NCBI RefSeq assembly: GCF_004136635.1
Contig: NZ_NOIU01000002.1
Location: 1 to 64,000, forward strand
DNA: 64,000 bases
Reading direction: 5' to 3'
Source: Rothia halotolerans
GTDB lineage: Bacteria > Actinomycetota > Actinomycetes > Actinomycetales > Micrococcaceae
Under the pieces are notes generated by a model. That model was given only the letters and a program-made list of their open reading frames with translations, had not been told where the DNA came from and made no database searches. The first letter of the stretch is position 1. The number at the start of each line of letters is the position of its first letter. This document shows positions 43,618 to 43,799 of this stretch, in pieces. The translations under genes were made by a program, and so were the position numbers.

Positions 43618-43729
43618 GGATATCCCCCTATGAGATCGAGACCGGCCGGCGCGTGCGCTTCCCGAAGGGGGAAATGCGCCGCGGAATCGCGGCGAGAGCG
43701 GCTCGGCGGAGACATTCTGCCCGCTCACC

Positions 43730-43750
43730 GGGGTCTTGCGGCAAGACCCC
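43730..43750. promoter_or_regulatory. Rifamycin-associated element (RAE)
   Basis: A perfect palindrome: GGGGTCTTGC (43730-43739), central G (43740), GCAAGACCCC (43741-43750). It matches the published RAE inverted repeat (GGGGCTTGC with GCAAGGCCCC, from memory) found upstream of rifamycin-inactivating genes in actinobacteria. It lies upstream of rox. Confidence 0.9.
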
Positions 43751-43764
43751 TCCCCGGCTATATT
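43736..43764 (+). promoter_or_regulatory. Rightward promoter overlapping the RAE
   Basis: -35 TTGCGG (43736-43741) lies inside the RAE; spacer 17 bp; -10 TATATT (43759-43764). Expected start near 43771. The next gene in this direction is ppk2 at 43941. Confidence 0.65.
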
Positions 43765-43772
43765 CTGAAAAT

Positions 43773-43799
43773 GCAGGGAGCAGACCGCTCTCTGCTTTT
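43773..43799. terminator. Terminator-like hairpin just after the RAE promoter
   Basis: GCAGGGAGC (43773-43781), loop AGACC, GCTCTCTGC (43787-43795), one G-T pair, then TTTT. Read leftward it is followed by ATTTTC, so it could act in both directions. It begins almost at the predicted start site of the rightward promoter. Confidence 0.6.

Follow-up and report, generated by a model that had tools for sequence, protein, structure and literature searches.

Promoter anatomy of the rifamycin-associated element: a predicted divergent pair through which RNA polymerase may sense rifamycins

In a stretch of 64,000 nucleotides from Rothia halotolerans (contig NZ_NOIU01000002.1, positions 1 to 64,000; hereafter 'the window'), the rifamycin monooxygenase gene rox is preceded by a perfect copy of the rifamycin-associated element (RAE), with ppk2 lying on the other side (Table 1). 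The RAE of Actinobacteria is a palindrome found before rgt, rox, helR, arr and rph, where it overlaps the -35 of the sense promoter; for mycobacteria its length is given as 19 bp, and it is placed over the -35 of the helD promoter that follows it (PMC10719064). Rifampicin induces the rox, helD and arr homologues of M. smegmatis, and does so comparably without sigB (PMC6529629). The element is possibly bound by an unknown factor (PMC10719064; PMC12802891, Discussion), and the mechanism of its response to rifamycins was called unresolved as late as January 2026 (PMC12802891). Here we compare the surroundings of RAE sites and propose, with a probability that we place at roughly one half, that the RAE is the shared -35 centre of a divergent pair of sigma-A-type promoters, in which a drug-stalled polymerase at the antisense promoter, P_as, releases the sense promoter, P_s.

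The palindrome upstream of rox is 21 bp long, GGGGTCTTGCGGCAAGACCCC, as the original prediction, made from the letters of the window alone, had stated, and it contains a perfect match to GGNCTTGCNGCAAGNCC. We take GGNCTTGCNGCAAGNCC to be the sequence of the RAE. The leftward hexamers that had been proposed, TTGCCG and CAGAAT, are in place and form the predicted P_s of rox. Of the proposed rightward promoter, here P_as, the -35 TTGCGG stands and TATATT is indeed present at a 17-bp spacing (43759-43764, plus strand), but the hexamer at the conserved position is the overlapping TATTCT, at 19 bp. The hairpin with its run of T, likewise borne out, begins where transcription from P_as is predicted to start, at a distance of 33 bp from the centre of the RAE; it has the make-up of an intrinsic terminator, a G+C-rich stem followed by a T-run, and the 361 bp scanned around the RAE hold two terminator-like sites against 0.1 expected. 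The 32-nt RNA from the predicted start folds with -16.1 kcal/mol (z -5.0), while 60 nt from the same start reach a z of only -1.3. A generic sigma-70 scan of the RAE region returned no promoter, so that neither P_s nor P_as is a consensus promoter and the case for both rests on comparison; an Rfam search of positions 43500-44000 gave no match at E up to 0.1. Among the matches listed, the complete arrangement occurs at a single site of the source genome, and the reversed control is not matched there.

Table 1. Features of the rox locus in the window
Feature	Position	Strand	Remark
RAE palindrome	43730..43750, centre 43740	none	TTGC on each strand is the predicted -35 of a promoter
P_as -35, TTGCGG	43736..43741	+	predicted antisense (rightward) promoter; position as in the compared sites
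P_as conserved -10, TATTCT	43761..43766	+	19-bp spacing; TANNNT here in 167/175 sites
P_s -35, TTGCCG	43739..43744	-	predicted sense (leftward) promoter
P_s -10, CAGAAT	43714..43719	-	19-bp spacing; NANNNT here in 171/175 sites
Hairpin (43773-43795) and TTTT (43796-43799)	43773..43799	+	putative terminator of a short antisense RNA
rox, rifamycin monooxygenase	42043..43617	-	gene that P_s would serve; NF033145, 794 bits, just below the cutoff of 800
ppk2	43941-44765	+	TIGR03707; right of the palindrome

RAE sites were gathered blind to their flanks. The exact pattern GGGNCTTGCNGCAAGNCCC was matched in 30 of 396 genomes of the phylum and a 17-base RAE core in at least 72 of 297 genomes of the order; the 17-base pattern has chance matches, its reversed control being matched in at least 16 genomes by a count of its own over the same 297. 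A named genome collection yielded at least 119 stretches, and rox loci of the family were found in 26 of 245 genomes. Together these gave 229 distinct sites, of which 203 could be oriented by five gene clusters and 175 remained after sites with at least 75 of 100 flank positions alike had been dropped; unless stated otherwise, all counts below refer to these 175. For each cluster, a single representative was compared with NCBIfam to name the gene family. The pattern leads to helR, rox, rgt, arr and rph, five rifamycin genes that are unrelated to one another, in keeping with the expected place of an RAE before genes that inactivate rifamycins or protect the polymerase. That these are families tied to the RAE in print provides an independent check on a sequence taken from the window. 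The 26 sites outside the main statistics comprise five that are ambiguous between families, the rest belonging to none of the five gene clusters or having too short a flank; taken in either orientation, 14 of them have both -10 hexamers described below, 10 do not and 2 lie too close to an end. Eight of those 10 are non-actinobacterial or unplaced records with none of the five genes.

On the antisense side, TANNNT lies exactly 19 bp from TTGCSG at 167 of the 175 sites and at no more than two sites for any other spacing from 12 to 25 bp. Its mirror image on the sense side, also at 19 bp, is the looser NANNNT at 171 sites (NANAAT in 133, strict TANNNT in only three), which is seen in addition 29 times at 21 bp and 43 times at 22 bp; the background per position is 0.0014 for TANNNT and 0.026 for NANNNT. 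Both hexamers stand exactly at 19 bp in 165 sites, distributed over all five families (helR 73/78, rox 58/62, rgt 14/14, arr 13/14, rph 7/7), and several of the ten failures resemble one-base shifts. The original prediction had named an opposed promoter at other RAE loci as its own check, and this part of it holds at the 167 antisense sites. Its choice of TATATT as the -10 is not carried by the comparison: TANNNT at 17 bp occurs in 2/175, and TATANN there in 114/175. When both -10s were required and the arms of the palindrome left free, a search of 394 genomes from the class gave matches in at least 177, and none of the matches listed was to the control.

The bases kept in both -10s are A2 and T6, and on the antisense side two bases between A2 and the end are free. 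This is the signature expected of a promoter and not of a simple protein dyad. Sigma-A/sigma-70 promoters carry A2 and T6 of the -10 at a constant distance from the -35, and both sides of the RAE do so at the 165 sites. By sequence, the RAE has the form of a bidirectional promoter, two overlapping promoters pointing in opposite directions.

The hairpin sets the two sides of the unit apart. Antisense stems of at least 7 bp occur at 81 sites (32.8 expected from shuffles), and such a stem followed by at least four T in the next seven bases at 36 (1.4 expected), whereas the sense side has a stem at 23 (20.5 expected) and a stem with T-run at none (0.2 expected). The 5' base of the stem lies within three bases of the predicted antisense start at 79 sites, against 25.4 expected and 18 on the sense side, and 36 of these 79 stems begin exactly at that start. 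Among the stems near the start, each of pairs 1 to 9 is made by four to six types of base pair, there are 72 distinct 5' arms, and the loops vary; it is structure and T-run that appear to be kept, not the letters, and the comparison argues for selection on antisense termination. For the hairpin, which the original prediction had named in the same check, the comparison bears it out at a part of the sites. We conclude from the mirrored -10s, the antisense hairpins and the recurrence of the arrangement before five genes, and before arr beyond the phylum, that the RAE is in all appearance the shared -35 of a divergent promoter pair. The pair itself would be the constant part of the unit, often accompanied by the terminator.

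Beyond Actinomycetota, the unit stands before arr in a Stenotrophomonas (locus L121; L numbers are our labels for loci) and in a metagenome-assembled genome (MAG) of Xanthomonadaceae (L136), and three loci of MAGs labelled Chloroflexi carry both -10s. The arm-free pattern was matched in 40 of 198 genomes of the family of L121, its reversed control in four. Examination of 31 of these loci (L300-L330) placed arr downstream in 28. In the 45 nt examined on the antisense side, 27 of the 28 contain TTTT, and the full 17-mer is kept in 17; because the search had required both -10s, only the gene link, the arms and the terminator are informative in this family.

The comparison of sites brings out the anatomy, the fixed spacing, the five gene families and the presence outside Actinomycetota; what we infer is the activity of both promoters, the repression of P_s by P_as and an action of the drug via polymerase. 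P_s would drive the resistance gene and P_as would fire the opposite way, at many loci yielding an RNA of some 30 nt, ended by a hairpin whose stem begins at or near the first base. With no drug present, use of P_as would keep polymerase off P_s. At low drug, a drug-bound polymerase would stall at P_as after 2-3 nt and thereby silence it, and drug-free polymerases would then use P_s. The least certain step, which we call the latch, is that the stalled complex at P_as would let go of the palindrome and leave it to P_s. Recycling of polymerase after termination (PMC6978322) was also considered, and the available part of the literature on RNAs that bind RNA polymerase (PMC11077062) contained nothing bearing on this locus.

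Several observations weigh against this proposal. In steady-state models built for this analysis, with arbitrary rates, a palindrome acting as one exclusive seat never gave a rise in sense output from drug-bound polymerase in 200000 random parameter sets, the largest fold change being just under 1. Plain one-seat promoter competition is thus ruled out by the model as sufficient for induction, and the idea of the original prediction, that competing promoters rather than a classic repressor mediate the response, would need an extra step, as would sensing by polymerase in general. The relative strength of the promoters is equivocal: the -35 fits better for P_as at 126 sites and for P_s at 47, the -10 at 19 bp is nearer to TATAAT on the sense side at 86, on the antisense side at 19 and equal at 70, and with spacers of 16-19 allowed the -10 fits better for antisense at 60, for sense at 12 and equally at 103, so the sequence does not show that P_as is the stronger promoter. 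About half of the 175 sites have no hairpin by our criterion. Among 33 loci recovered by searches that left the arms free (L267-L299, which are not a random draw and include three from the MAGs labelled Chloroflexi), the palindrome retains its outer arms in 31, although a -35 has no need of them. Two alphaproteobacterial loci with an RAE and a rifamycin-type gene, L144 and L157, have neither -10. As to generality, no RAE (up to 3 mismatches, 260 bp upstream) was found at 12 of the 27 rox loci obtained from the family (L240-L266), and L241 has only one with 3 mismatches; after re-orientation, 12 of these 13 are without the arrangement (up to 4 mismatches, 300 bp), nine of the 12 belonging to a single genus (g260).

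The missing step could be supplied in more than one way. If the stalled antisense complex stays in place but frees the palindrome, sense output in the model rises by as much as about 7-fold when drug occupancy is low, at the rates chosen. A step of this kind could also come from the arrangement of B. subtilis proper, in which an upstream sense promoter, P1, meets P_as head-on and its polymerase dislodges the drug-stalled one; a P1 start of M. smegmatis helD is in fact reported about 20 bp upstream of the RAE (PMC10719064). We consider this unlikely, as a sense TANNNT at any fixed place from -200 to -41 occurs at no more than 3 of the 175 sites, although a P1 at variable distance would escape such a count. 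Nor was a conserved downstream antisense promoter found at a fixed place (at most 3/175 anywhere).

Sensing might instead lie with a dimeric transcription factor that binds the palindrome, controls both promoters and responds to the drug or to its effects, P_as then being a co-regulated by-product or the source of a small RNA with a role of its own. That the arms are kept although a -35 needs none makes this a serious rival: the palindrome exceeds the two -35s, plain one-seat competition cannot induce, and an unknown factor has been suggested (PMC12802891; PMC10719064). Such a factor fails to explain why P_as is kept as strictly as P_s and has its own terminator; moreover the arms are weaker in the Stenotrophomonas family, and the open reading frames (ORFs) of L121, inspected by eye with no dedicated search, include no obvious regulator gene beside the unit. 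We regard it as possible, though not probable. Much less probable still, to the point of being very unlikely, is that the A/T-rich box beyond the RAE is no promoter of its own but an UP-like or factor-binding element of P_s; it is the most A/T-rich conserved stretch, some 52-61 bp upstream of the predicted P_s start, yet its invariant bases are those of an antisense TANNNT, the positions between them being free, its spacing is the exact mirror of that on the sense side, and the antisense-only terminator, with its varying stem, begins at the very start that the box predicts. On balance we favour polymerase-based sensing through the antisense arm, with the latch as a hypothetical step.

The nearest known system is the helD/pps dual-promoter alarm of B. 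subtilis. There, a strong antisense promoter with a 19-bp spacer, P_anti-helD, gives a terminated short RNA and represses helD, rifampicin stalls polymerase at the antisense promoter and so releases the sense promoter, and 19-bp spacers are shared by the rifampicin-sensing antisense promoters (PMC12802891). The RAE unit resembles it in this spacer, in its rifampicin defence genes and in a predicted short antisense RNA with intrinsic terminator. The geometry differs: in B. subtilis the promoters converge, 39 bp separate their starts, and both can hold polymerase (PMC12802891), whereas the RAE promoters point apart, with no conserved convergent partner, overlap in the -35 and have predicted starts separated by about 66 bp. 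In E. coli, the overlap of bidirectional promoters usually lies at the -10. There, pseudo-symmetrical DNA engages polymerase in either orientation, and binding in one prevents binding in the other (PMC12825309); unlike those promoters, the RAE unit combines a conserved, shared palindromic -35 with drug-defence genes and a predicted terminated antisense RNA. With respect to the RAE as described in Actinobacteria, the palindrome here becomes the centre of a larger unit, which also comprises a predicted antisense promoter in mirror position and often a terminator, and which occurs outside the phylum as well. Neither of these two antisense features was found reported for the RAE in literature that did not cover the primary RAE and HelR papers, so this negative is no proof that they are unpublished. 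The broadest form of our proposal is that an RAE without dedicated regulator acts, in Actinomycetota and Gammaproteobacteria, as a divergent-geometry polymerase sensor of rifamycins with a latch, a second realisation of the B. subtilis principle; we advance it tentatively, as something that may well fail.

Some further observations were made along the way. Inspection by eye shows, downstream of P_s, a recurrent leader similar to GGCCGAAGCCAGAACCTGCGGAAAT; it lies at about +31 to +55 relative to the RAE centre in many loci, among them those of rox, helR, rgt and rph, and is found mainly in Streptomyces and its relatives. Four RAE-free rox loci (L258, L259, L260, L262) share, by eye, an upstream stretch of CCTCAACAT followed at a distance by CGTACGCT, perhaps an ordinary promoter. 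Two loci contain two RAE units each, L166 (1486 and 2006, about 520 bp apart and facing opposite ways) and L075 (2182 and 5956). L187 (1508) and L226 (1699) each hold an RAE-like site that has both -10s although no rifamycin gene could be assigned to it, and a cluster of 390-aa ORFs with no NCBIfam match, L233 included, stands beside the RAE in five loci; these are possible further genes under RAE control. In the window, a simple repeat at about 39085-39165 reads as Lys-Arg repeats in one plus-strand frame. The link to ppk2 that the original prediction had drawn is lost, the gene occurring, among all loci compared, only at those of the window's own genome, so it is ruled out as a part of the unit. 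At the cutoff used, rox was matched in none of the 17 listed genomes from the same genus (199 matchless genomes being unlisted), so the rox of the window looks like a recent arrival or a rare survivor in its genus.

For the biology of rifamycin defence, the antisense promoter predicted in mirror position at almost all of the sites examined, often with a terminator of its own, provides a concrete and cheap test of the RAE mechanism and offers a reason for the element being a palindrome at all. The unit ties the actinobacterial RAE to the alarm of B. subtilis and is a more specific signature for finding rifamycin-defence genes; it is present in the Stenotrophomonas family as well. Its anatomy suggests how a cell might sense the drug by means of its own RNA polymerase.
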